NCBI GenBank assembly: GCA_946186115.1
Contig: CAMHLV010000005.1
Coordinates: 1-64,000 of the forward strand
Direction: 5' to 3'
Origin: an uncultured Prevotella sp.
Lineage (GTDB): Bacteria; Bacteroidota; Bacteroidia; Bacteroidales; Bacteroidaceae
DNA length: 64,000 nucleotides
A program made the position numbers and the translations under genes. Positions 1 through 22,989 of this stretch are shown here, piece after piece; the first letter of the stretch is position 1; the number at the start of each line of letters is the position of its first letter. The notes under the pieces were generated by a model. It had not been told where the DNA came from. It saw only the letters and a program-made list of their open reading frames with translations, and ran no database searches.

Positions 1-301
1 GCTGCACCGTCATGCTGCCCTGGAACACCACGCGGCGGCCGTTGGGCATCACCAGACTGTCAACCTGTGACAGCAGGTAGCGACGCTCGCCGTCACCGTC
101 GGCAACGACAAGCGACACGTAGTCGTCGTGCTCAACGCCGTCGAGGTCGAGGCGGGAATGGTACATGGAAGAGCCTGACGACAGCGCCATCTTGTCGATG
201 ACGCCGCTGGCAAGGTACACGCGCAACGGCCGAGCAGTCTGCGCCGTTATCGTTAGCGTTAACGTTAGCGTTATTGTCAATATCGTCAGTATCTTCTTCA
301 T
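1..301 (-). CDS. N-terminus of a secreted FISUMP-operon paralogue (partial)
   Basis: Only the first 100 or so codons are present; the gene runs off the left edge. The start is the ATG at 301, giving KKILT followed by a hydrophobic run of alternating Leu, Thr and Ile and then TAQT, which reads as a Sec signal peptide. The mature start carries HSRLDLDGVEHDDYV and GERRYLLSQVDSLVMPNG, which match the same places in the three large proteins upstream (for example HSKVDLYGVEHDDYV in the giant one). It is therefore a further member of the same surface-protein family and the last visible gene of the operon. The 13-base gap to its neighbour supports co-transcription. The signal peptide is coded by near-perfect ACGTTA/ACGCTA hexamers. 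Whether FISUMP modules follow cannot be seen. Confidence 0.75.
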   Translation of the reverse strand, partial: MKKILTILTITLTLTLTITAQTARPLRVYLASGVIDKMALSSGSSMYHSRLDLDGVEHDDYVSLVVADGDGERRYLLSQVDSLVMPNGRRVVFQGSMTVQ

Positions 302-314
302 GCCATATCTTTGC

Positions 315-3300
315 TTATTCCTTCAGGTTGTTATATAACGTCAGCACCTGTTCAGCGGTCAGCGGCTCGTCATAGATGCGGGCGAAGACCACCGTACCAG
401 GCCAGCCGGACGATGACGATGATGCATTGTTACTGCTGTTTGGATTACCACTAATGGTGAAAAAACGACACGCAGCATCAGGACTATGGTATGCTCCATC
501 CGCCTGAATCTCACCTTTGTTTTTGCCATCCACATAGAGACGAATGCCATAGTCCTTGTCGTAAACAGCTACTACATGGTAATAGAGTCCCGACTCAGGA
601 ATTACTCCGGATTTAATTTTCTGATATTCACTGCCAAGATAGATATCTGTCCATATCTCTTTATCCCGAATACCGATACCAGAACCACCATTCTGAAAGT
701 CTGCAATAATATCAGCTTCATCGTTCTTGGTAGGCTTAGTAGGCAACATGACTAAGGCCTCTATAGAGTGACCGTCGGACAGATGCTTTATAAAATCGTC
801 CCTATTGCGATAATCAAAGGAATAGAGCTGCGACGAGTTGCTCCCATGGGTATTGGCAAATGCCACCTCATAGCGTTTGTAACCGCTATTGTATGAGACG
901 GTAGGTGAACCTGTCTTTACCGCATTAAGCTTGGTGGGTGCACCATTGAAGATGGTGCCGTCAGCCTTGAACTCGGCACTCAGCAGTGTAGCGGCAGTAA
1001 TGCTCTTGATGTCACCGAAATAGTAGGTACTGCCCACCTTGATATATGCACGGAAGAACTTGGCAGAGCCATCGTAGTTGTAATTGATGGAGAACCTGTT
1101 GTTGCCGTCGAGGTTGGTGGCTGCATGTACGTTTCCAACTGCCGGCGTGTCGGTATCAACCTCCTGGATGGTGCCGACGATGAAGCCGTAGGACATTGAT
1201 ACAGCACCCCAGCAGGCTGCCGTGCCATAAAGAGTAGCCGTCGCAGCACCGATAGTCCACTTGCAGCTGTCGGTCAGTACACGGGCGATTACGCCGGAAG
1301 CAATAGTGTCAAGGGCATTCGTAATGCCTCGAACGGAGAAGCCCCTATATTTAACTTCACGGTTATTATTGGTAGTATAAGCATCTGGCTGCAAATAGAG
1401 ACAATCACAATTACTATTGTCATATCTCGTTGAAGCCATATAAAGACCTCTGTCTGGATAGACAAGATTACCATTTGAATACTTATAATATCCAACACCA
1501 TCTCTAATGCCTGCACGTGGAAGAATAAGAGAATCACCAGTAACACTGCTCTTCACCTTCCAGCAATTCTTCCCATTGATGGTGACACTGCTCCAAGTCA
1601 ACTTATTATAAGTGACAATTTCATTGTTTTCGGACTGAGTAGGCAATCCCCATATCTGACCCATATTAGCAGTGGCAGCATCGTATTCCGTAGCTTTAAT
1701 ATTATAACCCAATTGAATGTAACCGTTATCGTAATATTGGTGATTAGCCTGTGTATAAGACTCCTTTGGATGCGTCTCACCCCAAGCATAATAGTCACCG
1801 AAATCTTCAGGTGAATTAGCTCCGAGATTGACACTAGCCCAAAGCTTACCCGAAGGCAGACCAAGATCAACCATGCGTAATAATTCAAACTTCAAGGTCT
1901 TGCCATATATTGTACTAGTACCTTCTGTGGCGTAGGCACGATAGTAATAAGTTTTGCCTTTTTGGAGACCAGACAAAATATATGTGAAATATCCAATTGA
2001 AGCTGTACCAGCAGAGAGTTGCTGCGCATTGCTCATGTCAGCGTTTTCGCTAAACTCAAAGCCCACAGAAACATCATTGCCTGAAATAGTTTGAATGTAA
2101 GCTTTCAAAGTGTCTGTCTCTGCAACACTCATAGTGTTACGTCCGATATTGCAGGTTCGCAAATTAGCCATCTTGTGTTGCACACCACGGACCTCAAAGC
2201 CATAGCCCTTACTGTCTTTATATACGCCACCTACATTTTCGTATTTAAATGCATAGTAGTAGGCATCATCTTCTCCATCACCGGTAGATGACCAGTAGTC
2301 GCTCCATCCGTCATGCCGATGGTAGGAGTCTTGCCAGTAGCCGTCTGATGGGAAGAAGATACTACGACCATTGATGTTACTGGTCAGAACATGTCCATTG
2401 ACCCCATTACGGGTTTCTGTTGCGAAGGTTGTATTGTCTATGAGTTCCTGATACTCCTCCTTAGTAGGCAGGCGATAAGTATCTCCCCACATGTTCGACA
2501 CCATATCATGCCCGCTATCAACTGTCAGATCGGAACTAATAATATACTGTTGTTTCGTGTTGCGATAGGGTTCTAAGGCTCCCCAACGGTAGCACAGGCC
2601 TCCCGCTCCCTCATTCTCAGCACCAAGGTTCATGTTAGCCCATTTTACAGAGAGGCCAAGATCAACCATTTCAATAGTAGTTATGTCAAGCGTGTTGCCA
2701 TAGAATGTCTTTGTGCCGTTATCAACGTATCCTGCAAAATGGTAAGTTGCACCTTCCTCAAGGCCAGGGATAGGAAAAGATATGATTGTTTTTACATAAC
2801 CATTCTCATCGGCAGAAAGAGGCACTATTTCTTTCGCTTCCGAACCATGTTTCCAATAGACTATACCAATGGTAGTTCCGCTGCCAGCATTCTCCAGTCC
2901 ACGAATGACAGCGCGCAGGGTGTCATACTCTATTGTACCATTATAAGATTTTCGTGCAGGAAGTGTACGGATAAACATGTCACTGCTATTAGCTGACGAG
3001 GCATTGGTCTTATAGACGGGACGTAAAGAGATGCCATCGTATCGCTCCCATCCATTAGTGGGCGTTGTTTTATCGAGGAAATAAGCAAGTGTTGTCCACC
3101 TATTACCCCCTGCATCAACCATCGGCAGTTGAGATGAAGCCAAACAGCTACGTGTCGTATATTGAGCTGGTTCATTGATGGCGGAATTTCGACGGTAGGC
3201 AGCCTTCGGCACAAAAATGGAGTTCTGATTGTGATTGCTTGTGAACAAATAACCATTAATGCCGTTCATCGTCGCGTCAGAAGGTGTACAGTTAGCAACC

Positions 3301-5498
3301 AACTCCTGGAAATCTGCATAGTCAGGTGTCATCCATACGCCACCCCAATTCTTCGATGCTGCGTCATAGCAGGTGGACTGCACATTATACAGTCTGTCGG
3401 GCTGTAGCCATGTACTATTCTGATACCAAATGTTGGTCGACTGGGAAAAAGATGTCTTAGTATCGGGTTCTCCCCACGAGAAGTAATCACCGTCTTCATC
3501 GGGCCGCGTAGCACCAACGTTGATGTTGGCCCACTTCGTACCAGAAGGCAGGCCGAGATCTACATAGCAACGGCCGAACTGCAGGGCATTGGCATATTCG
3601 ACATTGCCGTCGGCATCCATAGCGTAGGCACGATAATAATAGGCCGTGTCCTTCGGCATGGTGAAGTCGGCATGGTAGGCACCATCGGCGCTGACCGATG
3701 CCGTCACCTTTGTGCCACCATTGGCAATGGTGACGCTATCAGTCTTGCCCACTACGAAGCCTATCTGTATGGCATCTTTATCTTTGGCTTTGGCATAGCC
3801 GTAGAGCGTGCCGTAGAGTTTTGCATTTAGCTCTGTAGCCTTCCACTGCACGCTGTCGGTCATCACCTGCACCAGTGAACCGTCGGTCATCTGCACTCCC
3901 GTGCTGATAACGGGACGTACGCTTTCACCAAGATAGATGTCCTCTCCTGACTGATATACACCACTGCTGTAACTATAGAAATTGAGATACAAGTTCTGCT
4001 TTTTCCCAGAGTTGGTGAGCTGGGAAGTGCGGTACAGTCCGCGGGTATTGATGTCGTTATTGCCCGTGCCGCTGCGGTAGCCTGCTGCTGGCATGAACAG
4101 CTTGTTACCGTTCTTTCCGGTAATCACATATCCCGGCTTCGAGTTCAGCGGTTGCCACGCCCATGAGCAACTATCAACCAATAGGTTAAGCTCTGCCGAG
4201 GTCGGCATCGAGAAACCGCCGCTCAGACGCATGTGCGCCACGTCCATATCAGTCAGGCGGATATTCTTGGGAAGGTCATTAAAACTGGTATTCTGATACG
4301 TGTAGTTGCTGGTGGAGTAGTTACCCTTATCCTCCAACTCGCCCCAGGCATAGTAGCCGCCATATTCCTCAGGGGCTCCGGCTCCCATGTTATGGTTGAG
4401 GAACTTGACGGGCAAGCCGAGGTCAACGACGTAGTTGTTACAGTTGGCCTTGATGACATATACCGTGTTTCGGGCGATGCCGTCTTTCAAATCGACGGTC
4501 TTGGTATAGACACCCGTCGAGCCCAACAGGTTGTCATAGACGGTGAACTCACAGGTCAGACGGGTGGCCCCGCTCTGCGGAGCGATAACCATGTAGGCCG
4601 ATGTATTCTGGTCGTAATTGCGCGGCAGCACGAAGTCGCCGGTGGTCAGCGTGACGGTATGTTCATAGTCGGTATTCGCCTTTGTGGTCAGTCCGTCGGT
4701 GGTCAGCGTGAAGTCGCCGGCCAGACCGCCACCGCTGCGTACGGTAATGCTCTTCAACACTGTGCGCCCCAGGTCGTTGGAGATATAGGGCAGGAAGCAC
4801 AGGTAGGCAGCATGATGGTCGAGGTTGAAGCGGTAGGAGCCGTCCTGCTGCTTGGCAGCCGTAGCCGTTCCACAGTCGCCTGCCACGCCGATGTGCTCGG
4901 TGTTGTTGGCAGTCTGCTGAGTCTGGTCCTTGGCAACACGCACATTGTTATATGCTATCGGTGTCTGTCCGGCATAATAGACAGTCACGTTGTCGGCCGT
5001 CAGCTTATTGCCGCCAAAGTAGAAATCGCCCGTGCGCTTGGTGTCACTGATGGTTGCCAAGGTGTCACGACGACCATCCTCTAGATAGATGTGGTCGCCC
5101 TCCTCCCAGAAGAAATCCACCTCGGAGGTGCTGGCCATAAAGTCGCCATCTAACGATGTGCGACGCGCCGACCTGTTGCCGCTGTTGTCGGTCATGCCAC
5201 CGACGAAGCGTGTCAGGTGGATGCGGATGTCGCCACGTACCATCACCACACTATCGATGTCGGCCAACAGATACTGGCGCATGTCGTCGTTCTTCAGCGA
5301 CACCACCATGACAACATAATCACTTTGTGTCTCGCCCTTCAGGTTAAGCCTTGAATGGCTGATGTCTTTCACCGTAGCCATAGCCAGCGAGTCTATAGGT
5401 CCGCTGTGCTGATAGACATACAAACTGTCGCTGTTCTGTGCCGACAGCATTGTCGGCATAAACAGCATCACCATCATGATATATACGAACTTACTCAT
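315..5498 (-). CDS. Secreted protein: fimbrillin-like N-terminus, four FISUMP modules, LamG-like C-terminus
   Basis: I start at the ATG at 5498 (MSKFVYIMMVML), not the TTG of the track, because a Sec signal peptide ending LSAQ begins there; 1,727 residues. Residues about 25-350 resemble fimbrillin-type beta-sandwich domains and share EHIGVAGDCGTATA with the paralogues. FISUMP modules (Fib_succ_major family) begin near 360, 645, 945 and 1210, each opening with a VDLGLPSGxxWAxxNxGA-type motif and containing a YYAWGE-like motif. They alternate with Ig-like domains of roughly 100 residues ending in YYYRAYA. Residues about 1505-1727 look like a LamG/concanavalin-like domain (HSIEALVMLP; YHVVAVYDKDYGIRLYVDGK), which the paralogues lack. 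There is no lipobox or T9SS tail. Likely a surface or extracellular adhesive or glycan-binding protein; the function of FISUMP modules is not known. Confidence 0.85.
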   Translation of the reverse strand: MSKFVYIMMVMLFMPTMLSAQNSDSLYVYQHSGPIDSLAMATVKDISHSRLNLKGETQSDYVVMVVSLKNDDMRQYLLADIDSVVMVRGDIRIHLTRFVGGMTDNSGNRSARRTSLDGDFMASTSEVDFFWEEGDHIYLEDGRRDTLATISDTKRTGDFYFGGNKLTADNVTVYYAGQTPIAYNNVRVAKDQTQQTANNTEHIGVAGDCGTATAAKQQDGSYRFNLDHHAAYLCFLPYISNDLGRTVLKSITVRSGGGLAGDFTLTTDGLTTKANTDYEHTVTLTTGDFVLPRNYDQNTSAYMVIAPQSGATRLTCEFTVYDNLLGSTGVYTKTVDLKDGIARNTVYVIKANCNNYVVDLGLPVKFLNHNMGAGAPEEYGGYYAWGELEDKGNYSTSNYTYQNTSFNDLPKNIRLTDMDVAHMRLSGGFSMPTSAELNLLVDSCSWAWQPLNSKPGYVITGKNGNKLFMPAAGYRSGTGNNDINTRGLYRTSQLTNSGKKQNLYLNFYSYSSGVYQSGEDIYLGESVRPVISTGVQMTDGSLVQVMTDSVQWKATELNAKLYGTLYGYAKAKDKDAIQIGFVVGKTDSVTIANGGTKVTASVSADGAYHADFTMPKDTAYYYRAYAMDADGNVEYANALQFGRCYVDLGLPSGTKWANINVGATRPDEDGDYFSWGEPDTKTSFSQSTNIWYQNSTWLQPDRLYNVQSTCYDAASKNWGGVWMTPDYADFQELVANCTPSDATMNGINGYLFTSNHNQNSIFVPKAAYRRNSAINEPAQYTTRSCLASSQLPMVDAGGNRWTTLAYFLDKTTPTNGWERYDGISLRPVYKTNASSANSSDMFIRTLPARKSYNGTIEYDTLRAVIRGLENAGSGTTIGIVYWKHGSEAKEIVPLSADENGYVKTIISFPIPGLEEGATYHFAGYVDNGTKTFYGNTLDITTIEMVDLGLSVKWANMNLGAENEGAGGLCYRWGALEPYRNTKQQYIISSDLTVDSGHDMVSNMWGDTYRLPTKEEYQELIDNTTFATETRNGVNGHVLTSNINGRSIFFPSDGYWQDSYHRHDGWSDYWSSTGDGEDDAYYYAFKYENVGGVYKDSKGYGFEVRGVQHKMANLRTCNIGRNTMSVAETDTLKAYIQTISGNDVSVGFEFSENADMSNAQQLSAGTASIGYFTYILSGLQKGKTYYYRAYATEGTSTIYGKTLKFELLRMVDLGLPSGKLWASVNLGANSPEDFGDYYAWGETHPKESYTQANHQYYDNGYIQLGYNIKATEYDAATANMGQIWGLPTQSENNEIVTYNKLTWSSVTINGKNCWKVKSSVTGDSLILPRAGIRDGVGYYKYSNGNLVYPDRGLYMASTRYDNSNCDCLYLQPDAYTTNNNREVKYRGFSVRGITNALDTIASGVIARVLTDSCKWTIGAATATLYGTAACWGAVSMSYGFIVGTIQEVDTDTPAVGNVHAATNLDGNNRFSINYNYDGSAKFFRAYIKVGSTYYFGDIKSITAATLLSAEFKADGTIFNGAPTKLNAVKTGSPTVSYNSGYKRYEVAFANTHGSNSSQLYSFDYRNRDDFIKHLSDGHSIEALVMLPTKPTKNDEADIIADFQNGGSGIGIRDKEIWTDIYLGSEYQKIKSGVIPESGLYYHVVAVYDKDYGIRLYVDGKNKGEIQADGAYHSPDAACRFFTISGNPNSSNNASSSSSGWPGTVVFARIYDEPLTAEQVLTLYNNLKE

Positions 5499-5529
5499 CT
5501 GATAATTTTCAATTTTCAATTTTCGATTT

Positions 5530-8500
5530 TCAATTACCTATCGTTCCACCAGTATCACCACTACCGGCATTACCCGAACCGTTGCCGTCGCCGCCAGTAC
5601 CCTGGCTGCCGCCCTGGTTGTGTCCGCCGGTGATGTCGCCACCGCCGCCCTCGTTGGCTCCTGCCGTGGTGACGGCACGCACGCTGACACCATAGTAACG
5701 ATGCTCAGCCGTCACGGAGTCTTCTCCCAGGTTGCCGATGAGCGCATACGAGTCGCCGTCGTTGTAATAGACTGACGTCCAGTAGTGGCATGCGCTGCCA
5801 AGATCCTGATAGTAGCCTCCAGACTGATAACCTGCGGCAGGCAGGAAGATGCTGTTGTATCCATCCTTGTCGTTCTGCGTCTGACTGGTCACGCGATATC
5901 CGGCGACACCGTCCTCCGTAGTCCACTCCCAGTCGCAGTTGTCAACCAGCCACTGCATCTCAGCATTCGTCGGCATGCGCCATGAGCCAGTCCAGTTGGC
6001 CTTCACGGCATCATAGCTTGCCTTGTTGCTGATATCGGCGCCGATGAACTTATATCCGCCATCGTAGTGAGTGTAGGTAGCTTGCGTATAGGTGGTCTTA
6101 CTGGTAGTCTCACCCCAAGCATAGCGGTCGCCATATTCCGACGAGGTCTGTGCACCGAGGTTGATGCTTGCCCACTTGATGCCGTTGCCCATATCGACGA
6201 GTTCCAGACCATAGCGGCGTGTATTGCCGTAGTAGTAGGTGTCGCCAATCTTCACGTATGCACGGTAATAGTAGGTAGTATCCTTGGCATAGGTGAGTGT
6301 ACCACGGAAGGTGTTGTCAGTAGCCGATGCTGTTGCGATGATGTCGGTTACATCCGTACCGCCTGCCACCAGAGCCGTCGATGTGGAGTCGCAACCTACC
6401 ACGAAGCCACGGGTGACACCATTAACATTCTTCAGTCCTGCAACGGCACCGACGAGACGTACATCCGTCACACCGACCTGCCAGTTGGTGCTGTCGGTGG
6501 TGAGATAGAACTTCGTCTGTTCGTGCTGCTTGTTGTACTTGATGACCGGACGGATGGTGTAGCCGAGGTAGCGTGCCACGGCATCGATGGTACGGTTGGT
6601 GCCGTAGAACGAGGTACCATAGGCATTCTCATGGTTGTAGGCATCAGTGGTGTTCAGGTTCGAGGTCCACATCATGACACGTTCGCCATCTCTGGCCACT
6701 GCCGTGCCGTTCATAGAACCACGCTTGGCTATGAAGATGCTGTCGCCCGACGGACCCACAATCTTGTACATCGGCTGGTCGTACTTCGTCACCTCCGTCC
6801 ACGTACACTTCGTAATCAGGTCGTTGACGTCGTCGCGTGTCGGCATGCGCCACAGACCACCCCAGTGCCCAGCGGTCGTTGCGGCATCATGGCTGCTGCC
6901 AGCGATGTCAGCACCGAGGTCAGGATAGGTTGCGGGCTTGTTGAACGATGTCTTCGGCGTGGTCTCGCCCCAAGCGTAGTAGTCACCGCTGTCGTCGGAG
7001 CTGCTGGCGCCGAGGTTGATGTTCGACCACATCACACCGTTGCCGAGTCCGAGATCTACCGTGCGGCGGCCGAACTCACGCTCGTTGCCGAAGTAGTACT
7101 TGCCGTCCACCTTGACGTATGCACGATAGTAATAGACGGTTTCGTCGGCTACACTAGGTACGGTGGCAGAGAATACACCGCTGGCCACGTTGTACAACTC
7201 ACCCTCGTTGGTCTTCAGGTACTGCACACCCGATGTCTGGTCAGTGACGTTCGGCGTGGTGGCATAGGCGAAGCCCGACTCCGTAGCATTGCTGTTATAG
7301 CGCAGACCTAATAGGTAGCCATAGAGCTTGGCCGAAGTTTGGCCAACCTCCCACTGTACGCTGTCGGTGGTCATCTGAATCATCGACTCGTCGTCCAGCG
7401 TGTTGTTAACCATGGCGACAGGACGGACACCGAAGCCGTAGTGACGGCTGTCAGTAGTGAGATAGGGCACAGTGCCATTGCTTCTCGTCTCAAATGAGTA
7501 TGCACTGACCTGATCACTTTCAAGTCTTGTAGAAGACCAGTAGAGCGGACGCCAACTCTCTTCATTCAGCAGAGAATTATTATTGCTGAAGCCGTTTGCA
7601 GGCAGATAGATAAACTTATCAGCGTTCTTCTTATTGGTCACCTTGTAAACCGTACTGCCAAAGAGCATTGTTTTTTCGATATTACAGTTAGCGACAAGCT
7701 CCTCAAAGTCAGACTTCTTTGGCATACGCCACGGACCCTTCCAGTTGACCTGGGCAGCATCGTAGGTAGTACCATTGATATCGTCACCGATATCCTCTCT
7801 ATAGTGAGAATAGCTTGTGTTATTATCGTAATATGAACCCTTTGTAGATGTCTCACCCCATGAGAAGTGGTCGCCACGATCCATCGGTGTCTGCGAGCCT
7901 ACGTTGATGTTAGCCCACTTCAGGCCTGACGGCAGGTCAAGGTCGACGAACTCCAAACCGAGCATCTTCGGATCGCCATAGGCAATACGTCCGCCTACGT
8001 TGACGTATGCACGGTAGTAATACTGGTTGAACCCGATGTTGGTGAAGTTGCAAACGAACTTGCCGTTGTCGGTAGTGTTGCACTTGATCTTGATGCGCTG
8101 TTCCTCAGGCATGTCGAGATTCACGTCGGCAACGGTACCGACAACGAAGCCTATCTCGGTATTTCCCTGCACGGCCTCCGTCACACCCGTTACGGCACCA
8201 CAGAGGCGAGCCTCAGTCATGCCCACCTGCCAGTTGGTGCTGTCGGTCTGTATGGTCATGGCCTGCATCTCCTTCGGATTGCCGTACCAAGTATTATCAT
8301 TATAGGTCAGGTATGCGCGTACATAGTATGTGCTGGTGACGTCGAGCGTATTCATCTGCTCCTTGCTCAGCGGAAGGCTGTAGCTGCCGTTGTCGCCAAC
8401 TTCCTGTGCCGTCAGCGTCACCTTCAGCACCTCAGTGCTGCTTTCAAGCGTTACATCCTCGGCAGTACCGATGACGAAGCCCTTCGTGACATCGGTCACC

Positions 8501-10539: not shown

Positions 10540-10557
10540 TATGATGATTTATATTAC

Positions 10558-11019: not shown

Positions 11020-11036
11020 ATTCTTCGTTTTTAATT

Positions 11037-11100
11037 ATTTGTATTTCGTTATCGTTAACGTTTTCGTTTTCGTTATCGTCTTCGTTTTCGTTATCGTTAT
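11037..11100. repeat. Simple hexamer repeat (CGTTAT/CGTTTT) in the leader of the T9SS-sorted gene
   Basis: About 60 bases between two operon genes consist of CGTTAT, CGTTAA and CGTTTT units repeated without interruption. The same type of unit codes for the signal peptide of the paralogue at 1-301. Being a short tandem repeat it could vary in copy number by slippage. It lies upstream of the start codon at 11019, so a length change would alter the leader and not the reading frame. Confidence 0.7.
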
Positions 11101-14100
11101 TCGTTTCCTTCGACGTCGTCGCCGCCGTTGTCACCAGTACCGGCATTACCACCGTCACTGTCCATCGTCACTCCGGTCGGGCTGTAGATGGCGCGCAGGT
11201 GGAGCAGGGCATCGCGGGCTGTCAGCAGCTTCGTCTTGGTATTGGTACTGTCGGCACTCAGCGAGGTAGCATTGGTCGTGTCGCCCTCGCCCTTCTGCGA
11301 GCTCCAGTAGGGGCCAACAGGAATGAAGATGCTGTTGCCGTTAGGTCCGGTCACACGGTAGCCGTTGACATCGAATGCCCAGGTACACTTCGTGAGCAAC
11401 TCGTCGATATTGGCAATCGACGGCAGACGATAGTGGATGCCCAGGCGCGTATGAGCGGCGTCGCTGGTTGTACCACCGATGTAGTTGTAGGTGGACGGCA
11501 CGCTGTACGAACCTGTCTGGTTCGGTGCAACCTCACCCCAGCGGTAGCCGTCGCCGGCAGCCTCCTCGTCGTTGCTGCCCATGTTCATGTCAACCCACCA
11601 GACACCCGACGGCAGTCCGAGGTTGACGGCCTTGGCACCGAAGCTCTTGATGGCACCCTTATGTACCTCACCCTCATAGCGGGTGTATGCCTGGTAGTAA
11701 TAGGTGGCCACCTTGACGGTGTCAATCTGTGCATAGAAGACAGAGTCGGTAGCGTCGAACTCAGCCACGACAGACTTGCTGTCCGACATATCGCTCTTGG
11801 TGCTGTAGATGAATCCTACCTCCAGACCGCTGGCCGGCTTCTGGGCCTTGGTATGACCGTAGAACGTGGCGGCATTGCCGAGACCCCACTTCACGCTGTC
11901 GGTGAAGAAGGTGTAGTCGGTCATCGGGATGGCATTGCCATACTTCGTCTCAGTGCCTTTGCTGACGTATGCTCGTACCCAGTAGTCATCGCCTACGGTG
12001 AGCGTCTTCAGCTGATCGTTGGTCAGCGTGATATGATAGACACCATTAGCCTCAGCTAGCTGGCTGACGTCAATGAATGCCTTCGGATCTTCCGTCGCAG
12101 TATCGCTTGTTCTCACGATGCTCTGTGACGTACCAATGACGAAGCCCTGCGTCAGATTGTCGTCTGCCGAGTTGAGTCCGAGCATCATGCCGTACAGCGT
12201 GTTGCTGGTGCGGTCGGCAGCATAGTTGACGCTGTCGGTGCGGATGAAGATATCCTGATCGCCCAGCTTGCCGTTGGTGTCATAGACAGGACGGATGGTC
12301 AGACCGTCGTAGCGCGTGAACAGCGGGGCCGACTTGCTGGTAGCATCGAACATCAGGGACGAAGCGTACCTCGTCATACCATTACCCTGCGGTATGGACG
12401 ACCAGTAGCGTCCGCTCGAACGATAGCCGTTAAGGTCGGTGTTGTCGCGGTAGCCAGCAGCCGGCAGGAAGATGTTCTCGTGCGTGACGGTGTTCTCTAC
12501 CCAGTAGCCTGGCACGTCTTTCTTCGAAGACCAGGTCCATGAGCAGTTGCTCATCAGTTCATTCATCTCATCGAGTGTCGGCATACGCCAGCAGCCGTTG
12601 AACTTACGGTTGGAGATATCCCACTCGGTAGCACTGATGTTGCTGCCTATATAATGATAGGTGGCATTGTCGTTGTTACCCGTGGCATGGCGGTAGGTCA
12701 CGGCCGTGTAGTTCAGCTGCGTGATGGTGTCGCCCCATGCATAGTAGTTACCGTCAAGCTCCGGCAGGTTGGCACCGACGTTACGGTCGGCCCACTTCAC
12801 GGAGAGTCCGAGGTCGATGGCCGTCGGCGTAGTGCCCTCTGTTGAATTCGTCGAGAAGGCCTTGACGGCTCCACGATAGGTAACGCTGGAGTTGCCGTCG
12901 CTCTTGATGACGTATGCACGGTAGTAGTACATATTACCCTCCGCCAAACCGCTGATGGTGGTATGGTATGCACCGCTGGTGCTGACAGATACCGTTTCCT
13001 TGGTGGCATTGGCCATTGCCGACGAGCGTGACCACTCAAATCCAATCTCGGTGCCATTGCTGAAGTCGGAAATGTTGACGATACCGTTCAGCTGAGCCGA
13101 GTTCGTGGTGATGTCGGTCGGGGCAGTGGTGGCAATCAATGCCGTGACAGGACGTACCATGTGACCCAGGTAGCGCTCAGCAGCACCCACGAAGTAGCTG
13201 CCTGCCGTTTCCGTCGGCAGCACATTGAGCCGCTGGGCATTGCTGATGGCAGCACCCTGTGTCGATGACCAGTAGTAGTCGGCAGGCAGGAAGATGCTGT
13301 TGCCGCCGCGCGACACGCGGTATCCGGCGACACCGTTGAGCGTTTCCTTCGTCCACGTACAGTTGGCTATCAGCTCCTGAACCTCCGTCTCACTCGGCAT
13401 GCGTGTACCCTCGATCTTCAGCGTAGCCACGTCGTAGGTGGCATTGCTGCTAATGTCGGTACCAATGTCGGTATATCCGGTGCTGGTGTGGTGGACGTAG
13501 TTGTCGTAGGTGTAGCTGTCCTTCTCGGCAGTCTCACCCCATGCGTAGCGGTCGCCCGTGTCGGAAGCTACGGTAGAACCGATGTTGACATTAGCCCACT
13601 TGACACCGCTGGGCAGACCGAGATCGACAAAGTCGATACCCATCTGCAGGGCATTGGGAGCATAGTAATACTTGTCGCCGTACTTGACGTATGCACGATA
13701 GTAATAGGTGCCTACGGGCAGCGTCTTCAGTTTACCCTGGAAGGCCGACGACGAATACGTTGACGAATGGATAGAGTCAGTCTTGTTCTCATCCACCTTC
13801 ACATCCTCGCTCGTACCGATGACGAAGCCACGCTCCTGGAGGTTGTTCAGCACCGTCTCAGCACCCACCAAAGTGGCGAAGAGGTCGGAGTTGCTGTAAC
13901 CGGCACGCCAGTTGGTGCTGTCGGTACGCAGATAGACCTTATTCTGGTCGTCGAAATCTACGTTCGACTGCATCACTCCTCTGTAGCCCCAATCCGACGG
14001 GTCATTAGAGGTGAGATAGATGAACTTGCTGTTATCACTGTTATTCGTCACCTTCCAGACGTTGACGCCATAAATGGTCTCCTGAGTCCAGGTACAGTTG

Positions 14101-17100
14101 TCAAGCAACTGCTGCTTCTCGGCCTCCGTCGGCATGCGCCATACACCGCCGAACTCAACGTATGCCGGGTCGACACCTGCATACTTGCCTGTCAACGTGC
14201 CGTTGAGACCCATCTCCTCGGGTGTTGCCGCATCGACGTTGATATTGGCCCACTGTATGCCTACGCCTAAATCAACATCGGTGAAGCCGAACTGCTTGGA
14301 GTCTGCATGCCAATAGGTACCAGTGTCACTCTTAATATAGGCACGGTAATAGTAGGTGCCGTCGTTGCGCGTGTTGTGTTCAATCGTTCCGACGTAGTTG
14401 CCACTGCCGTCCTTGGTCGGCCGGGCTTTGATAATCTCTACGCCGCTGGTGGTCACCGTCAACTCTGGCGTCGTACCGATAACGAAGCCCGTCTCGTAGT
14501 TAGCAGGCAGGTTGAGCACAGCCGAGTAGAAGTTGACGCTGTCCTTCTGATAGCGCCAGTCGGTGCTCTCGGTGCGGAAGTAGAAGGTTACGCCATCAAC
14601 GAACGGACGTGCTACGGGACGGATGGCATTACCACGCCAGCGGGCATTGTCGGCTATCGACGGGTCGGCACTGTTGGCACTGACATCGAAGTTGAACTCA
14701 CGGGCCTGACGGTAGTTGGCTGAGCGGTTGCTGCTCCAGTAGTAGCCAAGCTTGGTCACCTCGTCGTCGTGATTCTGGTTCTGACCGCCTTCCTCGTTGG
14801 TCGAGTAGTCGTAGTTGGCATCGCGCTCATCGACGGTGTAGTAGTTCGACGGCAGGAAGATGCTGTTGCTGTTGACGTTGCTCTTCACGCGGTAGCCCGG
14901 AATATGGGCTACGGTGTCGCGGGTCCACGTACACTGTTGACGCAACTCGTTCCACTCCTCGTCACCAGCCATACGCCACAGTCCCTTCAGGAACTTATTT
15001 GCCACGTCGGTGGTGTCGTTGGCACTGATGTTGGAACTCAGGTCGCGGTAGTGCTGCAGCTCGCTGTCGAAGTATTTGTATCCGGCCTCAGTGAAGACAT
15101 CCTTCGTCGTGGTCTCACCCCAGCCGTAGAAGTCGCCGTGGTCCTTGATGCGCCAAGCACCCATGTTGACATTGGCCCACTTGGTGCCGCTGGTCAGTCC
15201 GAGATCGACCATGACGATACCGAAGTCCTTGATGTCGCCGTAATAGTATTTACTGCCCACCTTGGCAAAGGCACGGTAGTAGTACATGCGGTTGTTGTCC
15301 AACGGCGAGATATTGGCCTTGAACATGCCGTTCACCTTGCTGTTGGTAGCCGAATTGTAGGTCACAACATCGCTGGCACCGCCGTCATCCTTAGCCTTGA
15401 GGTTTTCGGCCGTAGTACCTACCACGAAGCCATAGGTGGCACTGTGACTGTCGTTAAGTCCTAAGATACAGCCATAGATGTCGGCACTGGTGACGCCGGC
15501 CACCCACGAGGTACGCTCGGTGGTGAGGCTCATCTTATGACCGTCAGGTAATACGACGTTGATCTTGGCAATAGGACGTACATAGTGACCGTGGTAGCGG
15601 TAGTGGTACTTCATCAGTCGGTTGGTCGTACCACCCTCCATGCCGAGGGCGTTACGGTCACGCGGAGCACGCGATGACGTCCACAGGGCTGTGTTCTCCC
15701 ACGGACCGTAATAGCTAGAGTGGTAGCCGCTCATCGTCCACTTGGGCATGCGGTCGTTCTTGGTGATGAATATCCAGTTGCCGTTCTTCTTGCTGACGAC
15801 CTTATAGCCAGCCACATTGGTATAGTAGCCGCCGTTGTCGTTAGGCACATACTTATAAGAGATGGAGTCGCGCCACTCGCAGCTATCTACGAGCATCTGG
15901 AGGTCATCCTCCGACGACATCGACCACAGGGCGCCGCGGCCGCCATATTCCGCCTCGTCCCAGGTGTAGTTCCACTTGGAGTGGGCCACGTCGTACTTCG
16001 TACCCTTGATCTCGTTGCCGAGGTTGTTGTACTCATCGTCACCCGTAGCGTAGTAGTAGATATAGTCGTCGAACCGGAATGTCGAGCGGGTGTCATTCTC
16101 ACCCCATGCATACTGGTTGCTGTTATCCTCGGCATAGCGCGAACCTACGTTGATGCTGGCCCAGTACATCTTGTTGTTGAAGCCCAGGTCGCGGAACTCC
16201 AGTCCGTAGCGACCGGTCTTGCCATAGACAAATTCACCGTTATACTTGATGAAGGCACGATAGTAGTAGGTGGTGTCACGCTCGTAGGGCACCGTCAGTT
16301 GGAAAGAGCCGTTAACAGCCTGCGGATGTCCGTCAACCTGCACATAGTATAGCTTGGCCTCGTTGGTGAGGGTGTCGGCAGCCACAGGATCGTGGTGGTA
16401 GCCTACCATGATACCCACGCGGGCCTCCTTCGAGAGTTGCTCCATGTCCTTGAGTTCCTCATCATCACCGCTGTTCACTGCATAGTCGTTGTTGAAGCCC
16501 GTAACACTGCCGTAAACGGTAGCCTCCTGTGCTCCTACCATCCAGTCCACGTCGCCAGTGATGATGTTCGGCTGGCGTACAAACTTGATGGAACGGCCAT
16601 AGTAGTACTTATCGGCAATCTTCACATAGGCGCGCACCCAGTAGGTGCTATCCACCTTGAAGAGGTTGATGTTCTGGCGGTCGTACCAGAAGAGGGAGTC
16701 TTTCTTGACATCTTCGTGCGGGAAGTCGTACTTGAAGTACTGGCCGCCCGTGCCACCCTGATGGGTGGTCAGTGTGTCGGAGCCCACGACGAAGCCAGTA
16801 CCTTGGATGTCAGGCACATTGTATTCCGTATGAGCCCAGCGCTGCTGAACGGCACCGAAGAACGAGCCGAAGAACGACACATAGTCAACTTTCGGATGCA
16901 CAATGGCATCATCGGTGCGGATGACTATCTCGTCCTTGCCGGCGTTGGGCAGGGTATCGGTGCTCTCCCAGATGGCACGCTCGAAATCCACGCCGCGACA
17001 GCCGTGACCATGGTTATAGACACTGCTGAAGCCGGGCTTGGTACTATAGCTGTCGATGCGGATGAAGTCGTAGTTGAGCGACAGATCGGTATAGTTGTCC

Positions 17101-20100
17101 TGATGCTGATAGTACTGTATGTTGCGGCGGATGAAGATCTTCTTACCGTTAGGACCAGTACCCGTCATACCGGCACAGCCGTAGAGGGTGTCGGGTTCCC
17201 ACGTACAGTTGTCTATCAGTTCCTGAGCCTCACTATGGTATGGCTGGCGATAGACGTTGTGCCACTTCTTGTGCGAGGTGTCGTTGAGACCTGCGGAACC
17301 GTTACCGTCGTTGCCGTAAGGCATATTGGTCTGGCCGTTCACACCATGGTTATCTCTCGTAGGCCATGTGCTATAGCCGTTGAGCGGACTGTTGCCACCG
17401 GTATTGATGCTGGCCCAGCGCTTGCCCGAAGGCAGACCGAGGTCGAGCAGTTCGAAACCGAAGGTGTTGACGTCGCCGTAGTGGAACTTATTATTATAGT
17501 ACGCGTACGCGCGGAAATAATAGGTAGTATCTTTTGGCAGTGTGAAGTCATGCTCTATAGGACCACCCTTGCTGCCGTCGTAGTCGTTGAGGACGTTAGT
17601 GAGTACATAATCATCTATCAGGTTATTCCCGGCAGGCTTCTGTGGGTCGTCGCTCGTTGTCAGGTCGCGGTTATATCCGATGATGAGACCGGCTCTGAAG
17701 TTAGCCGATGATGCCTCGTTGGCCAGGATACCCTGAATGGTACCCGTAATGTGGGCGTTAGTGCCATACATCTTCCACACGGTCTCCTTACCCGTCACCT
17801 GATCGGCCAGATGGAACGAGCGGGCGTCGCCGTAATAGTAGCTGTTGCCCACCTTCAGGTAGAAGCGGTAGTAGTAAGTGCCGTCGCTCGTCAGGTTGTC
17901 ATTCTTGTCGAGCACGAGGAAATACTGCGAGTTGTTCTTGTGCGTCTGGACATGCTTGATAATAGCATTGTTCCAGGTGACATCCTCCGACTCGCCCACC
18001 ACGAAGCCTAACTCGTACTTGTCGGAAGCCAACGGGTAGTTGATGCGATAGCTGCCCTGCAGGGCCACTGCCGTGCGGTAGTTCAGATAGTAACAAGTAT
18101 CGGTGGCGAGGTATGCCAGCGTGTCGTCGCGCAGCTTGTCGGCACCCTTGGAAAGTCGTAGGTTGTAGCGGGCTACCGGGCGCACGGTATGTCCCTGATA
18201 GAACTCATACCAAGTCAGCGTCCAGTCGTCATAACTCGATGGGGTGTCGAAGAACTGCTGCTGGCTGCCGTTGAGCGATACGGTCTTCACTGAGTCTGTC
18301 GATTCAAAGCCGTCAGAGACGTGGAAGAATCCTGCCGAATGGAACTGCGTAGTGTCGGTAGTCCATGTCAGAGTGTGGTCCTTGGTGTTGTTGTAGCTAC
18401 CGCCCTTCTTACCCTTCAGCGGCAGGAAGATGCTGTTGCCGTTGGTGCCGGTGACGCGCCAGCCAGGAACGCCGAAGAGCGTCTCGAACTTCCACGTACA
18501 CTGGTCTTTCAGCGACTGCCACTCGTCTTGCTCAGGAACGACGAAGAGGTTGCCGTACTTGGTGTTCTCGATATATTTACCAGTATCCGTAAACTTGGGA
18601 TTGTCATTACCCCAGTTCACGTAGGCGGCATCGTTCTTCGTACCGGCGAAAGCCTTCCAGTAGAGCTCGCCTTCACAGTTGTACTTGTTGTGCTCAGCAC
18701 CACGGAAGCGCACGGTATAGTCCTTACCGTGTACGCTGGGAACGGTCAGGTTGACCCACTTGGTCTTAGAGGTCGTAGGATGGTCAATGTATTTATCGAC
18801 ATCACCATCTCTATATGTTTCTCTAACATATTTCAGCGTGTCATCGATATACGTCTTCTCATGGTATGCAAACTTGGTCTCGGCCTCGCCGTAGGCATAG
18901 TAGTCGGGGTTGTCCTCGGCGTAGGCACTACCCACGTCGATGTTGGCCCACAACAGCGTCTGGCCCTTGCTGTCCTTGACGCCCAGGTCAACATAGTCGA
19001 GTCCGAACTGGCGTGCCTCGCTGTAGCGATAGACACCGTCGGCATAGACGAAGGCACGCACCCAATAGACAGTGTCGATAGGCACATCCATCACTGCCTC
19101 GTAACGCGGACTCTTGACACCGTCGATGATGCGGGTGTTATCCAGTTTCTTGCCAGTCATGTTGTGATACCAGATGGTCTCGTAGTTGCCTATGTCAATG
19201 TTAGCACTGTCGCCGACGACATAACCCACCTGGGCATTTTCACGGTCGTTCACGAACTCGACACCCTCGACAAAACTGTAGAGCGTGGCCTTCTTCTCGT
19301 GAACCTCCCAGCCTATGCTGTCGATGTCGATGGTCAGTGGAGCTATTTTCTTGGGCTTGCCGTAGAAGGTCTGGTCGTCTAAGGTGATATAGGCACGATA
19401 CCAGTATTCCTTGTCGGCACGCATGGTGTCGCGCACAGCCTTGGGTAGCGGCACAGTGTAGAGTCCGTTGTAAATGTCGGCCTTCTTCACCGTATCGGGC
19501 ATATTGCCGCAGGGCAGGTCTAAGAGCGTACCACCCTTGAAGTCGTGCAGCACGAAGCCGCGCGTGATAGTGGCGTATTTATCCTTCATGGCTTTCGTGA
19601 CACCTAACTCACGGCCATAGAAGCGGATGTCGGTACTGTCGAGGCTAACGTAGTAGCGTCCCACGGTGTCGGTACTGATAAACAGTATCTCCTTGTCGCG
19701 TGTCTGGCAGTTGGTCTGCAGCACGGGGCGCACCCACAGCTTGTTGTCGTAGTTCGACTGCGAGATGCCGCTGAGGTAGTTGACATAGTAGGCATTGCCG
19801 CCCGATGTGGGTCGCTGCGACGTCCAGTAGTTGGCATAGTCATAGTTGTAGCCTGGAGTATATGGCATGTACTCCTTGACATCGTTGATACCTGTCACGC
19901 GTTTCACATTCAACGAGAAGCGCGGCTTATTGTTGGGCGTGACGAAGGTCAGGGTGTCGATAAATGCCTGTGCCTGTTCCACGGTGGGCAGTGTGAAGCA
20001 CCAGCCCTCGCGCCCGAACCATTTATTAAATACCACGTCGTACTCCGTACCGGCGATGTCGGTGATGATAGACGGCACGGCCTTGGTGTTCCACGTGTAG

Positions 20101-22745
20101 GTGGAGTCGCGCTGCTCGGGATATTGAGATCCGACGTTGAGGTTGGCCATCTTGGTGCTCATCTGGAAGTCAACGGTGTCCAGTGGATGCAGGATCTTGA
20201 CCTCAGGAGCATAGAGACAGGTGGTGTCGCGCACGCCGTTCTCCTCATTTTCTGTCATGAACACGGCACGGACAAAATAGTAGCGGTCGTTTTTCAGTTT
20301 GTCCTTGGGGATGGTATAGGAGAAGGTCATGTCGTTCTTCACCTCACCTACTGCCGTCTTTCCTTCGTTGTCGGCAAGCCATATCTCACGGTTGTGAAGC
20401 GTAGGCATGGAGTACTCGTTCTCGTTCTTCAGTGAATCGGAAACCACAAACCCCACCTTGCCGACTACATCGGTACTGATACCGACGATGTAGCCGTTGA
20501 GCGTTGCCGTCTCGTCGCCCACCTGCCAGCGGATATTGCCGGTATGCGGGAAGAATCCCTTCAGCTGGGTGGCCTTCGAAGCATAGTAGATGTCGAGCTT
20601 TTTTGTCGAATCATTATATATTTTAAAGTACTCGCGCACGTAGTATTTCTTCTGCTTGTCTAAGAAACCGAGGAATGTGCCCTTCAGCTCCACGCGGATG
20701 TCGCGCTCGCCGGCAGCATAGGCTCCCACGCTCTTCGAGCCGTCAACGAGCATCAGGTGGTTGCCGTCAACGGGACGCCAGTCGGTATTCTCAAATACGG
20801 AGTCGGTCTCGTTCCAGATCTTATTCTTGGCTTCGTCGTTCTCGTCGAAGTAAAGCGTCAGCGAGTCGGTACCGAAGATAAAGCCCGTCTCATTGAGCTG
20901 CACGCTGGTATTCTCCGAGGGCCACGGACGTGCGGCACGCACCATGCCGACAATGGCAAAACGGTCAGTGCCGGCAACCTCTTCCTCGTACTTGTGGCGC
21001 AGCAGCATGAGTGAACCGTCATAGGGGGTGTTGCTCTTCAGGTAGTTGCTGTATTCCAAAATGCCTCGGGCGAAGCCTCCCTGGTAGAATTCAGTCTTGT
21101 TCTCAAACAGCGGCACAGACCTGTCCTTGTCAAGTCCGAGACCAGGAATCTTATAGTAGCCCAATGCCCCTCCCCCGCCGGGGATATAGTAGTAAAGGTC
21201 GTCGGTGGTGTATTCGCGGTTGACAGACCAGTAATGGCTATAGTTGTCGCTGGCAGGCAGGAATATTCGTTTCTTACTGGGGCCTGTGACCAGCACACCC
21301 TCCGTGCCGTTGTATTCGCGCCATTCAAACTTACATCGTTTAAGCAGCGAATCGGCCTCAAAAGTCTGTTGCATTCGCCAGCAGCCGCCCCATCGCTGGT
21401 AGGCAGCATCATATTTGGGGGTAAACTCTTTGTCGATGAATCCCCAACGCATATTATCGTTCTGATAACCCGGGTCGTAGTCGTTCTTGGTGTTCGACTC
21501 ACCGTAGCCGAAGGCACCACCATAAAAACTCACAGGACCGCGTTCGAAGTACGCCTCGACATTACGGAAGGCATATTTGATGTCGCCCAAGCCCAGGTCA
21601 ACGATGGAGAACAGGGTGTCGGGAATCTCGGCATTGAAGGTATAGAACGTGTTAGCCTTTAGTTCTGCAATATGGAATTTCTTGACATAAGTGGTGTCGA
21701 TAAGGCTCAGGGTATCTTCCACGTTGAAGATAAACTTGAGGTCAACGTCCTTCTGCGGAGCCACCACCATATAGGCGGCCGTAGAGTCCTGACAGTTCTC
21801 GTAGATACGCGGGGTATGCTTCCAGCCTGGGTCGTAAAAGAACGGTGTTTCCAGGGTAATGGTATCGTTGGGATTCTGTACTGAATTAAGGTCTATACCG
21901 TTCTGGTCGAAATAATAGGTGCCGGAGATAGGTTTGTTGGCTATCAGCGTCACACTCTTCAGCTTTACACTCGGCACGCGGGGATTGTGCGTCAAGAAGG
22001 CAAAGAATGCCGGGTGGTGCTTCAGGTCGAAGGTGTAGATGTTATTGTTGTTGCCTGTCAAGTCCTGGGCTGGGGCCAAGGTGGCTAATGACGTGGCACA
22101 GTCACCGGAATGGCCGATATGATCAGAGTTGTCCACCATGAGCTGTCGTTGCCTGCGGGCTATCTTGACATGGTTGTAGTCGGGAGCATCCTGGCCGGGA
22201 TAGTACACATAGACAGGCTCCTCTTTCTTCTGAACATAAATCTCCTTAAACAGCGCACGGGTACTGTCCGCCGTCATGTGGTCCATACCGGCCTTGTAGG
22301 CAATGTTCTGATTACCCATGTGGATATAGACAGAGTCGCGCAGCTCCCACTTGAATATGATGCGCGAACCATTTTGGGGCGGGAACGTGCCGTTGAAGAT
22401 GATTCTCCTACTGTTGCCGCCATCCTTGAGCAGGTTGATGTCACCCGTCAGCGTCAGCTTTTCCCATTCTTCCATCTCAGGAAGAAGAACCTCCTTCACC
22501 TCGGAAATGGGATAGCGACGCTCGCCGTCGGCGGTGGTGACCACTAAGGTGACGTAGTCATCGTGCTCTACACCATAGAGGTCAACCTTGGAGTGGGTGA
22601 TGTCGTAAGTGCCGTGAACAACTAATGAGTCCGTTCGATTGTTCATCTTGCTGACACAGAGGAAGCCGTGTCCGACAGCTGCCTGCAAATGAACAGCGGC
22701 AACAGTCACGAACAACAGAAATAGTAATGCCTTCTTGATATTCAT
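11097..22745 (-). CDS. Giant secreted protein with ten FISUMP modules (3,882 residues)
   Basis: The start is placed at the ATG at 22745 (MNIKKALLFLLFVTVAAVHLQA), a clear signal peptide; the longer ORF of the track overlaps the upstream small gene and has no signal. Residues 1-380 are the shared fimbrillin-like N-terminus (HSKVDLYGVEHDDYV, DHIGHSGDCATS). Ten FISUMP modules begin near residues 380, 860, 1255, 1770, 2185, 2515, 2825, 3040, 3310 and 3710. They alternate with Ig-like domains that end in motifs such as YYYRAYVK. The second and seventh modules are shorter or more diverged. The protein ends in an acidic, Gly-rich tail (GGNAGTGDNGGDDVEGNE). At about 420 kDa it is probably a long surface fibre or adhesin; no catalytic motif was found. 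First large gene of the operon, 10 bases after the 77-residue gene. Confidence 0.85.
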   Translation of the reverse strand: MNIKKALLFLLFVTVAAVHLQAAVGHGFLCVSKMNNRTDSLVVHGTYDITHSKVDLYGVEHDDYVTLVVTTADGERRYPISEVKEVLLPEMEEWEKLTLTGDINLLKDGGNSRRIIFNGTFPPQNGSRIIFKWELRDSVYIHMGNQNIAYKAGMDHMTADSTRALFKEIYVQKKEEPVYVYYPGQDAPDYNHVKIARRQRQLMVDNSDHIGHSGDCATSLATLAPAQDLTGNNNNIYTFDLKHHPAFFAFLTHNPRVPSVKLKSVTLIANKPISGTYYFDQNGIDLNSVQNPNDTITLETPFFYDPGWKHTPRIYENCQDSTAAYMVVAPQKDVDLKFIFNVEDTLSLIDTTYVKKFHIAELKANTFYTFNAEIPDTLFSIVDLGLGDIKYAFRNVEAYFERGPVSFYGGAFGYGESNTKNDYDPGYQNDNMRWGFIDKEFTPKYDAAYQRWGGCWRMQQTFEADSLLKRCKFEWREYNGTEGVLVTGPSKKRIFLPASDNYSHYWSVNREYTTDDLYYYIPGGGGALGYYKIPGLGLDKDRSVPLFENKTEFYQGGFARGILEYSNYLKSNTPYDGSLMLLRHKYEEEVAGTDRFAIVGMVRAARPWPSENTSVQLNETGFIFGTDSLTLYFDENDEAKNKIWNETDSVFENTDWRPVDGNHLMLVDGSKSVGAYAAGERDIRVELKGTFLGFLDKQKKYYVREYFKIYNDSTKKLDIYYASKATQLKGFFPHTGNIRWQVGDETATLNGYIVGISTDVVGKVGFVVSDSLKNENEYSMPTLHNREIWLADNEGKTAVGEVKNDMTFSYTIPKDKLKNDRYYFVRAVFMTENEENGVRDTTCLYAPEVKILHPLDTVDFQMSTKMANLNVGSQYPEQRDSTYTWNTKAVPSIITDIAGTEYDVVFNKWFGREGWCFTLPTVEQAQAFIDTLTFVTPNNKPRFSLNVKRVTGINDVKEYMPYTPGYNYDYANYWTSQRPTSGGNAYYVNYLSGISQSNYDNKLWVRPVLQTNCQTRDKEILFISTDTVGRYYVSLDSTDIRFYGRELGVTKAMKDKYATITRGFVLHDFKGGTLLDLPCGNMPDTVKKADIYNGLYTVPLPKAVRDTMRADKEYWYRAYITLDDQTFYGKPKKIAPLTIDIDSIGWEVHEKKATLYSFVEGVEFVNDRENAQVGYVVGDSANIDIGNYETIWYHNMTGKKLDNTRIIDGVKSPRYEAVMDVPIDTVYWVRAFVYADGVYRYSEARQFGLDYVDLGVKDSKGQTLLWANIDVGSAYAEDNPDYYAYGEAETKFAYHEKTYIDDTLKYVRETYRDGDVDKYIDHPTTSKTKWVNLTVPSVHGKDYTVRFRGAEHNKYNCEGELYWKAFAGTKNDAAYVNWGNDNPKFTDTGKYIENTKYGNLFVVPEQDEWQSLKDQCTWKFETLFGVPGWRVTGTNGNSIFLPLKGKKGGSYNNTKDHTLTWTTDTTQFHSAGFFHVSDGFESTDSVKTVSLNGSQQQFFDTPSSYDDWTLTWYEFYQGHTVRPVARYNLRLSKGADKLRDDTLAYLATDTCYYLNYRTAVALQGSYRINYPLASDKYELGFVVGESEDVTWNNAIIKHVQTHKNNSQYFLVLDKNDNLTSDGTYYYRFYLKVGNSYYYGDARSFHLADQVTGKETVWKMYGTNAHITGTIQGILANEASSANFRAGLIIGYNRDLTTSDDPQKPAGNNLIDDYVLTNVLNDYDGSKGGPIEHDFTLPKDTTYYFRAYAYYNNKFHYGDVNTFGFELLDLGLPSGKRWASINTGGNSPLNGYSTWPTRDNHGVNGQTNMPYGNDGNGSAGLNDTSHKKWHNVYRQPYHSEAQELIDNCTWEPDTLYGCAGMTGTGPNGKKIFIRRNIQYYQHQDNYTDLSLNYDFIRIDSYSTKPGFSSVYNHGHGCRGVDFERAIWESTDTLPNAGKDEIVIRTDDAIVHPKVDYVSFFGSFFGAVQQRWAHTEYNVPDIQGTGFVVGSDTLTTHQGGTGGQYFKYDFPHEDVKKDSLFWYDRQNINLFKVDSTYWVRAYVKIADKYYYGRSIKFVRQPNIITGDVDWMVGAQEATVYGSVTGFNNDYAVNSGDDEELKDMEQLSKEARVGIMVGYHHDPVAADTLTNEAKLYYVQVDGHPQAVNGSFQLTVPYERDTTYYYRAFIKYNGEFVYGKTGRYGLEFRDLGFNNKMYWASINVGSRYAEDNSNQYAWGENDTRSTFRFDDYIYYYATGDDEYNNLGNEIKGTKYDVAHSKWNYTWDEAEYGGRGALWSMSSEDDLQMLVDSCEWRDSISYKYVPNDNGGYYTNVAGYKVVSKKNGNWIFITKNDRMPKWTMSGYHSSYYGPWENTALWTSSRAPRDRNALGMEGGTTNRLMKYHYRYHGHYVRPIAKINVVLPDGHKMSLTTERTSWVAGVTSADIYGCILGLNDSHSATYGFVVGTTAENLKAKDDGGASDVVTYNSATNSKVNGMFKANISPLDNNRMYYYRAFAKVGSKYYYGDIKDFGIVMVDLGLTSGTKWANVNMGAWRIKDHGDFYGWGETTTKDVFTEAGYKYFDSELQHYRDLSSNISANDTTDVANKFLKGLWRMAGDEEWNELRQQCTWTRDTVAHIPGYRVKSNVNSNSIFLPSNYYTVDERDANYDYSTNEEGGQNQNHDDEVTKLGYYWSSNRSANYRQAREFNFDVSANSADPSIADNARWRGNAIRPVARPFVDGVTFYFRTESTDWRYQKDSVNFYSAVLNLPANYETGFVIGTTPELTVTTSGVEIIKARPTKDGSGNYVGTIEHNTRNDGTYYYRAYIKSDTGTYWHADSKQFGFTDVDLGVGIQWANINVDAATPEEMGLNGTLTGKYAGVDPAYVEFGGVWRMPTEAEKQQLLDNCTWTQETIYGVNVWKVTNNSDNSKFIYLTSNDPSDWGYRGVMQSNVDFDDQNKVYLRTDSTNWRAGYSNSDLFATLVGAETVLNNLQERGFVIGTSEDVKVDENKTDSIHSSTYSSSAFQGKLKTLPVGTYYYRAYVKYGDKYYYAPNALQMGIDFVDLGLPSGVKWANVNIGSTVASDTGDRYAWGETAEKDSYTYDNYVHHTSTGYTDIGTDISSNATYDVATLKIEGTRMPSETEVQELIANCTWTKETLNGVAGYRVSRGGNSIFLPADYYWSSTQGAAISNAQRLNVLPTETAGSYFVGAAERYLGHMVRPVTALIATTAPTDITTNSAQLNGIVNISDFSNGTEIGFEWSRSSAMANATKETVSVSTSGAYHTTISGLAEGNMYYYRAYVIKSDGNSSVTYRGAVKAFSTNSTEGTTPTAIDLGLSVKWADRNVGANLPELDGNYYAWGDTITQLNYTAVTYRHATGNNDNATYHYIGSNISATEWDISNRKFNGCWRMPTLDEMNELMSNCSWTWSSKKDVPGYWVENTVTHENIFLPAAGYRDNTDLNGYRSSGRYWSSIPQGNGMTRYASSLMFDATSKSAPLFTRYDGLTIRPVYDTNGKLGDQDIFIRTDSVNYAADRTSNTLYGMMLGLNSADDNLTQGFVIGTSQSIVRTSDTATEDPKAFIDVSQLAEANGVYHITLTNDQLKTLTVGDDYWVRAYVSKGTETKYGNAIPMTDYTFFTDSVKWGLGNAATFYGHTKAQKPASGLEVGFIYSTKSDMSDSKSVVAEFDATDSVFYAQIDTVKVATYYYQAYTRYEGEVHKGAIKSFGAKAVNLGLPSGVWWVDMNMGSNDEEAAGDGYRWGEVAPNQTGSYSVPSTYNYIGGTTSDAAHTRLGIHYRLPSIANIDELLTKCTWAFDVNGYRVTGPNGNSIFIPVGPYWSSQKGEGDTTNATSLSADSTNTKTKLLTARDALLHLRAIYSPTGVTMDSDGGNAGTGDNGGDDVEGNE

Positions 22746-22755
22746 AGTTTTAGCC

Positions 22756-22989
22756 TTATTCAAAACCGTTGTATTTTTTATACCCTGTCCAGATCTCAGG
22801 TTCAACATCTTCGTCATCGACAAAGGTAGAGTCACGACGAGAAGGGGCAAAAGGATTTTCTTCTGGAGTTTCGCCCGTTCCTGCGCTTCCTCCAATTGGT
22901 GGGGTATATGAACCTGCTAGCAACGACAATTCCACATCATCTAACAAGACGAAGGACTCAGGTTTACAGTAATTTCTTTTAACTTTCAT
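22756..22989 (-). CDS. Unrecognised 77-residue peptide at the head of the FISUMP operon
   Basis: Begins MKVKRNYCKPESFVLLDD and continues VELSLLAGSYTPPIGG. Short proteins with a basic start, a K-P-E motif and a following SLLAGS are common in Bacteroidales, often before secreted-protein genes, but I cannot name a function. There is no signal peptide. The C-terminal half is acidic and hydrophilic, with a Gly-Pro-rich middle. It may be a precursor peptide (the LLAGS stretch resembles a leader) or a small structural protein. It is the promoter-proximal gene, 10 bases before the giant protein, with a TACATTTG -7 box 78 bases upstream. Confidence 0.6.
   Translation of the reverse strand: MKVKRNYCKPESFVLLDDVELSLLAGSYTPPIGGSAGTGETPEENPFAPSRRDSTFVDDEDVEPEIWTGYKKYNGFE

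Follow-up and report, generated by a model that had tools for sequence, protein, structure and literature searches.

Long module arrays conserved between species in a rare Prevotella operon of candidate giant adhesins, and a possible partner gene for their sorting

Introduction

Cargo of the type IX secretion system (T9SS) is normally recognised through a sorting tail on the cargo protein itself. According to PMC9143113, type A tails serve both export by this system and anchoring to anionic lipopolysaccharide, and proteins with type B tails associate with PorP-like proteins for surface anchorage. The T9SS adhesin SprB offers the nearest comparison for the locus described below, since it too is a giant adhesin served by a specific partner gene, SprF; however, SprB has its own sorting tail, whereas here the giants are tail-less and the small partner, gene S, has a type A-like one. 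A literature search for T9SS proteins secreted via partners found, by title or abstract, nothing directly relevant.

Two further systems resemble parts of the locus. The Legionella protein Lcl is a surface adhesin with a domain of C-type-lectin-like fold that binds sulphated glycosaminoglycans (PMC11162425). Gene B of our locus matches the corresponding family (Lcl_C/DUF1566, PF07603) above the Pfam cut-off, but Lcl has a single C-terminal domain on a collagen-like trimer, whereas each chain here carries 4-10 modules in alternation with Fn3-like units. The FISUMP families (TIGR02145/PF09603) give sub-threshold matches in gene C, in its counterpart from species G284 and in two D genes, although no family member passes the curated cut-off and PF09603 has no match in the window; a literature search on FISUMP found no papers. 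Finally, the fimbrillin superfamily of the Bacteroidales (type V pili) appears to provide the five best structural matches to the modelled N-terminus, but the giants differ from it by an additional N-terminal domain and a giant module array.

Results

Layout and distribution of the operon

The window (the whole 64,000-nt stretch of DNA analysed) carries four paralogues, A to D, in tandem on the minus strand, all with a related N-terminus (Table 1). A preliminary description had proposed such an arrangement, with a LamG-like end on one member, and both points are borne out, the latter by a PF13385 match at the end of gene C (43.8 bits, cut-off 27.6). Its account of the span 1-22989 as four paralogues holds for A-D but overlooked gene S and a 77-aa ORF, whose start is the end coordinate it gave.

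Table 1. Coordinates of the features of the locus in the window.
Feature	Position	Strand	Length	Content
Small upstream ORF	22756..22989	-	77 aa	K.Y..P....LLAGS, then GG.AGTGE and acidic tail
Gene A	11097..22745	-	3,882 aa	Signal peptide, N90, fimbrillin-like domain, 10 Lcl_C/FISUMP-like modules with Fn3-like linkers, Gly-rich tail; orthologues in six species
Gene S	10558..11019	-	153 aa	Signal peptide, N90-like beta domain, T9SS type A-like sorting tail
Gene B	5530..10539	-	1,669 aa	N90, fimbrillin-like domain, 4 modules, Gly-rich tail
Representative module B2	7417..7950	-		Followed by Fn3-like unit at 7072-7416
Gene C	315..5498	-	1,727 aa	N90, fimbrillin-like domain, 4 modules, LamG end
Gene D	2..301	-	first 100 aa alone	N90; cut by contig end

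The start of gene A was placed at the ATG at 22745 and not at the TTG at 22895 because the orthologues begin at that ATG, and the tails of A and B have a GNAG[ST]G motif in common. Gene D is 85% identical over 81 residues to D1 of G284; no module occurs in the 100 residues present before the contig end, and complete D relatives have five, the first of them degenerate. The 77-aa ORF ends 10 nt before gene A. ORFs of 73-91 aa stand directly upstream of A in 5/5 clusters with that sequence available, alike at their start and mostly with a GG.AG.G motif, and an NCBIfam search with this type of ORF gave zero matches.

The same operon is found in six other species (G027, CAMHIS010000010.1, JAGDAU010000133.1, which is apparently the same as G343, G221, G284 and G415; a fragment in G294), with 43-82% identity in A-C. 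An assembly artefact was ruled out by the identical gene order in seven independent assemblies. The operon is rare, with about 7 occurrences in 398 sampled members of the genus, and a further draw of 301 genomes from the family yielded no additional one. The number of genes downstream of C differs between clusters, some of which add a gene of ~1,000 aa with one module, CUB and InlB-type domains.

The modules form one family related to Lcl_C

An iterative HMM search recovered 18 modules, of which A contributes 10 and B and C four each, which confirms an earlier count of at least 18, and all of them belong to one family; the same profile found none beyond A-C in the rest of the genome (79% complete, 126 contigs). 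For Lcl_C (PF07603, cut-off 34.9) gene B scores 53.9 bits, while A (21.1) and C (23.9) remain below, and TIGR02145 scores 25.9 in gene C, under its cut-off of 41.65. These proteins had been labelled FISUMP; none passes a curated FISUMP cut-off, and B alone passes that of Lcl_C. Judged by their profiles, the modules belong to the Lcl_C/FISUMP superfamily. A separate locus (L001, G000:C67) has the sole PF09603 match above cut-off found in this 79%-complete genome.

The module openings had been called near-identical. They are better seen as a conserved motif than as near-identical DNA, because the modules average 30% pairwise identity (maximum 44%); the DNA repeats of the window are short, with 60-86% similarity, and a search found none arranged as a tandem array of module length. 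Linkers between modules mostly measure ~110 or ~220-270 residues, and in a fold search the units once described as Ig-like look Fn3-like instead. An AlphaFold2 model of module B2 with its Fn3-like unit (7072-7950) reached a pLDDT of 87.4 and a pTM of 0.78. Because the Fn3 half dominated the matches to this model, the fold search leaves the lectin fold of the module unconfirmed, and a PDB sequence search with modules and N-termini gave nothing useful.

Module number is constant in the long arrays

Comparison between the seven species shows 10 modules in each copy of gene A with a fully covered array (the 5'-truncated copy in L052 retains the last nine) and 4 modules in all seven copies of gene B. 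For gene C the number is 4 in six copies, two of them from G343, and 6 in the remaining one, that of G284. A loss of the LamG end from the G284 protein, suspected from Pfam, was ruled out by direct comparison, which shows that this end is retained. When split modules were merged, 16 of the 18 module positions were monophyletic across species (14/18 with a second alignment), the exceptions having one or two sequences missing or gained. Since positions form clades that cut across species, each is an old lineage. Recent tandem duplication of modules in A and B was ruled out by the DNA repeats and the module tree.

Other parts of the locus behave differently: modules 3-5 of the D genes group by species (G284, L052 and G027). 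Gene A itself is a mosaic between the window and G284, with 99% identity over residues 1350-1500 (97% at four-fold sites) and 61-65% over the first 300 residues (43-54% at four-fold sites), which suggests the exchange of segments between lineages. Diversification driven by a diversity-generating retroelement (DGR) found no support, the sole reverse transcriptase found in the 79%-complete genome lying on another contig. At that locus (L066, G000:C25) the reverse transcriptase gene has nearby a short ORF with a FISUMP-like opening, the two at 2045-3484 and 3823-4578.

Two N-terminal domains

The first domain, of ~90 residues (N90), is common to A-D, and a second one, of ~250 residues, to A-C. 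An AlphaFold2 model of the N-terminus built from seven sequences was weak (pLDDT 62.8); the five PDB entries that match it best are all cell-adhesion structures from Bacteroidales. We take these to be members of the fimbrillin superfamily, and Mfa2 appears lower in the ranking. The fimbrillin-like character proposed earlier for this region is favored by the fold matches, but these have to be set against the low quality of the model and the lack of any match to Pfam fimbrillin profiles. Short lipoproteins of ~510-540 aa in the genus (L043-L046; G003, G005, G010, G026; up to 11 matches per genome) join the same fimbrillin-like domain to a single lectin-like C-terminus. These short relatives have a lipobox, whereas inspection by eye found no lipobox Cys at the cleavage site of A-D, and the suggestion that the giants tip or replace fimbriae is unproven.

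Gene S and its pairing with N90 across the genus

Gene S lies between A and B in 7/7 clusters. Its tail scores 22.8 bits against TIGR04183 in the window (cut-off 23), and a match is found in 9/9 members of the S family at E<=0.01, some of them above the cut-off. The beta domain of S is homologous to N90 (hhalign E 9.7e-7). No C-terminal sorting domain was found in A, B or C, nor in related giants. The T9SS component SprA is present in the same genome (G000:C9), but 117/120 members of the genus have it, too, and finding it is not informative by itself. S-like genes occur widely in the genus (53/60 at E<1e-6) and are scarce in the order's other families (7/99 at E<1e-12, own genome included).

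Outside the operon, among the best-scoring loci, not a random draw, a separate S gene stands no more than 20 nt upstream in 18 of 22 distinct strong N90 genes, and 16 of these 18 pairs overlap by 4 nt. Of the others, one follows in tandem a gene that has an S, and three (L083, L085 and L087) are fusions, single ORFs in which N90 is combined with dockerin-like repeats and a beta domain of the S type; they lack the sorting tail, the repeats standing in its place. Viewed from the other side, 29 of 30 S-like loci, again best-scoring ones, have a gene close downstream, with a 4-nt overlap in 15. With the window excluded, 22/26 S partners match N90/S-beta models at E<0.1, many of them only weakly for N90, as compared with 2/41 other nearby ORFs (Fisher p 1e-11). 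A sorting tail is found in 0/14 complete partners versus 27/27 S genes. The partners are diverse, and N90 giants elsewhere contain BACON, leucine-rich or Ig-type domains. At one locus (L117, G035:C4), an S-like ORF overlaps by 4 nt the gene that follows it, whose secreted product has one VDLGLPSG-type module.

Discussion

Taken as a whole, our explanation, to which we give an even chance, is that the operon encodes giant surface adhesins with lectin-like modules that are exported or anchored via S, and that the arrays of A and B are fixed. The gene products would form a set of giant secreted proteins, presumably located at the surface, each with a signal peptide, N90, a fimbrillin-like domain and then a rod of Fn3-like spacers bearing several Lcl_C/FISUMP-type, C-type-lectin-like binding modules, to which a LamG end would be added in C. 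The link to Lcl_C (PMC11162425) suggests binding of polymers or glycans, and a multivalent interaction of the modules with such ligands is probable. S would probably pair with the N90 of the tail-less giants and would probably export or anchor them through the T9SS.

It was proposed at the outset that module number varies and grows by recombination, and one could extend this to contingency proteins whose module number changes fast. Such a process would account for the six modules instead of four in C of G284, for D modules 3-5 that resemble each other within species, for the variable gene number downstream and for the mosaic structure of A; growth by recombination fits only the homogenised D modules, the expansion of C and the downstream copy number. 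For A and B, however, the idea meets 10 and 4 modules in each complete copy over seven species, with positional orthology, and modules that at ~30% identity are too divergent for easy homologous recombination. We consider rapid contingency change to be quite improbable. By the sequence comparison, the long arrays of A and B are of old origin and fixed, their divergence coming from substitution together with occasional exchange of segments. It would also be tempting to regard the giants as tip adhesins of type V pili, whose fimbrillin-like domain caps the pilus by strand exchange while the module rod is displayed at the tip. The fold matches to fimbrillin-superfamily structures including Mfa2 are in keeping with this idea, as are the short lipoproteins that join the same domain to one lectin-like C-terminus. 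Nevertheless, A-D are devoid of a lipobox, N90 stands ahead of the fimbrillin-like domain, the model itself is weak, and a scan of a few neighboring genes (ArgS, asparagine synthase, glutamate synthase and a TonB receptor) identified neither a pilin nor an anchor gene; we regard a pilus tip as unlikely.

The recurrent coupling of a tail-bearing S to tail-less proteins that begin with N90 suggests sorting or anchoring in trans, in which a small protein consisting solely of a T9SS type A tail and a docking domain would bind the homologous first domain of its tail-less partners. The partners, giant adhesins included, would thereby be carried to the cell surface or anchored on it, a reading that we put forward tentatively and consider less likely than not. 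Several points count against a role of S: it is directly upstream of B but not of A, C or D, and would thus need to act for more than one giant; the tail of the window S scores just under its cut-off; and the fusions L083, L085 and L087 have no tail. Alternatively, S might be an independent T9SS surface protein that is co-transcribed with the giants, has no physical role in their export and shares a domain with them through common ancestry. We give this reading a substantial chance, albeit one below even, as there is one S amid four giants and the N90 match is weak in many partners; yet the tight gene coupling recurs in many genomes, the tail on S and its lack on the partners are complementary, and three fusions unite the S-type beta domain with N90. 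Co-expression of S and the giants without contact is a serious rival to sorting in trans.

In summary, the cluster is a clean case of very long repeat arrays in which each module is conserved between species, whereas the usual expectation for repeat adhesins is a change in length. If sorting in trans is true, it would be a widespread two-gene arrangement in the genus, and a tail supplied by a coupled small gene would alter the prediction of secreted and surface proteins in Prevotella-type bacteria by turning many tail-less proteins into candidates.
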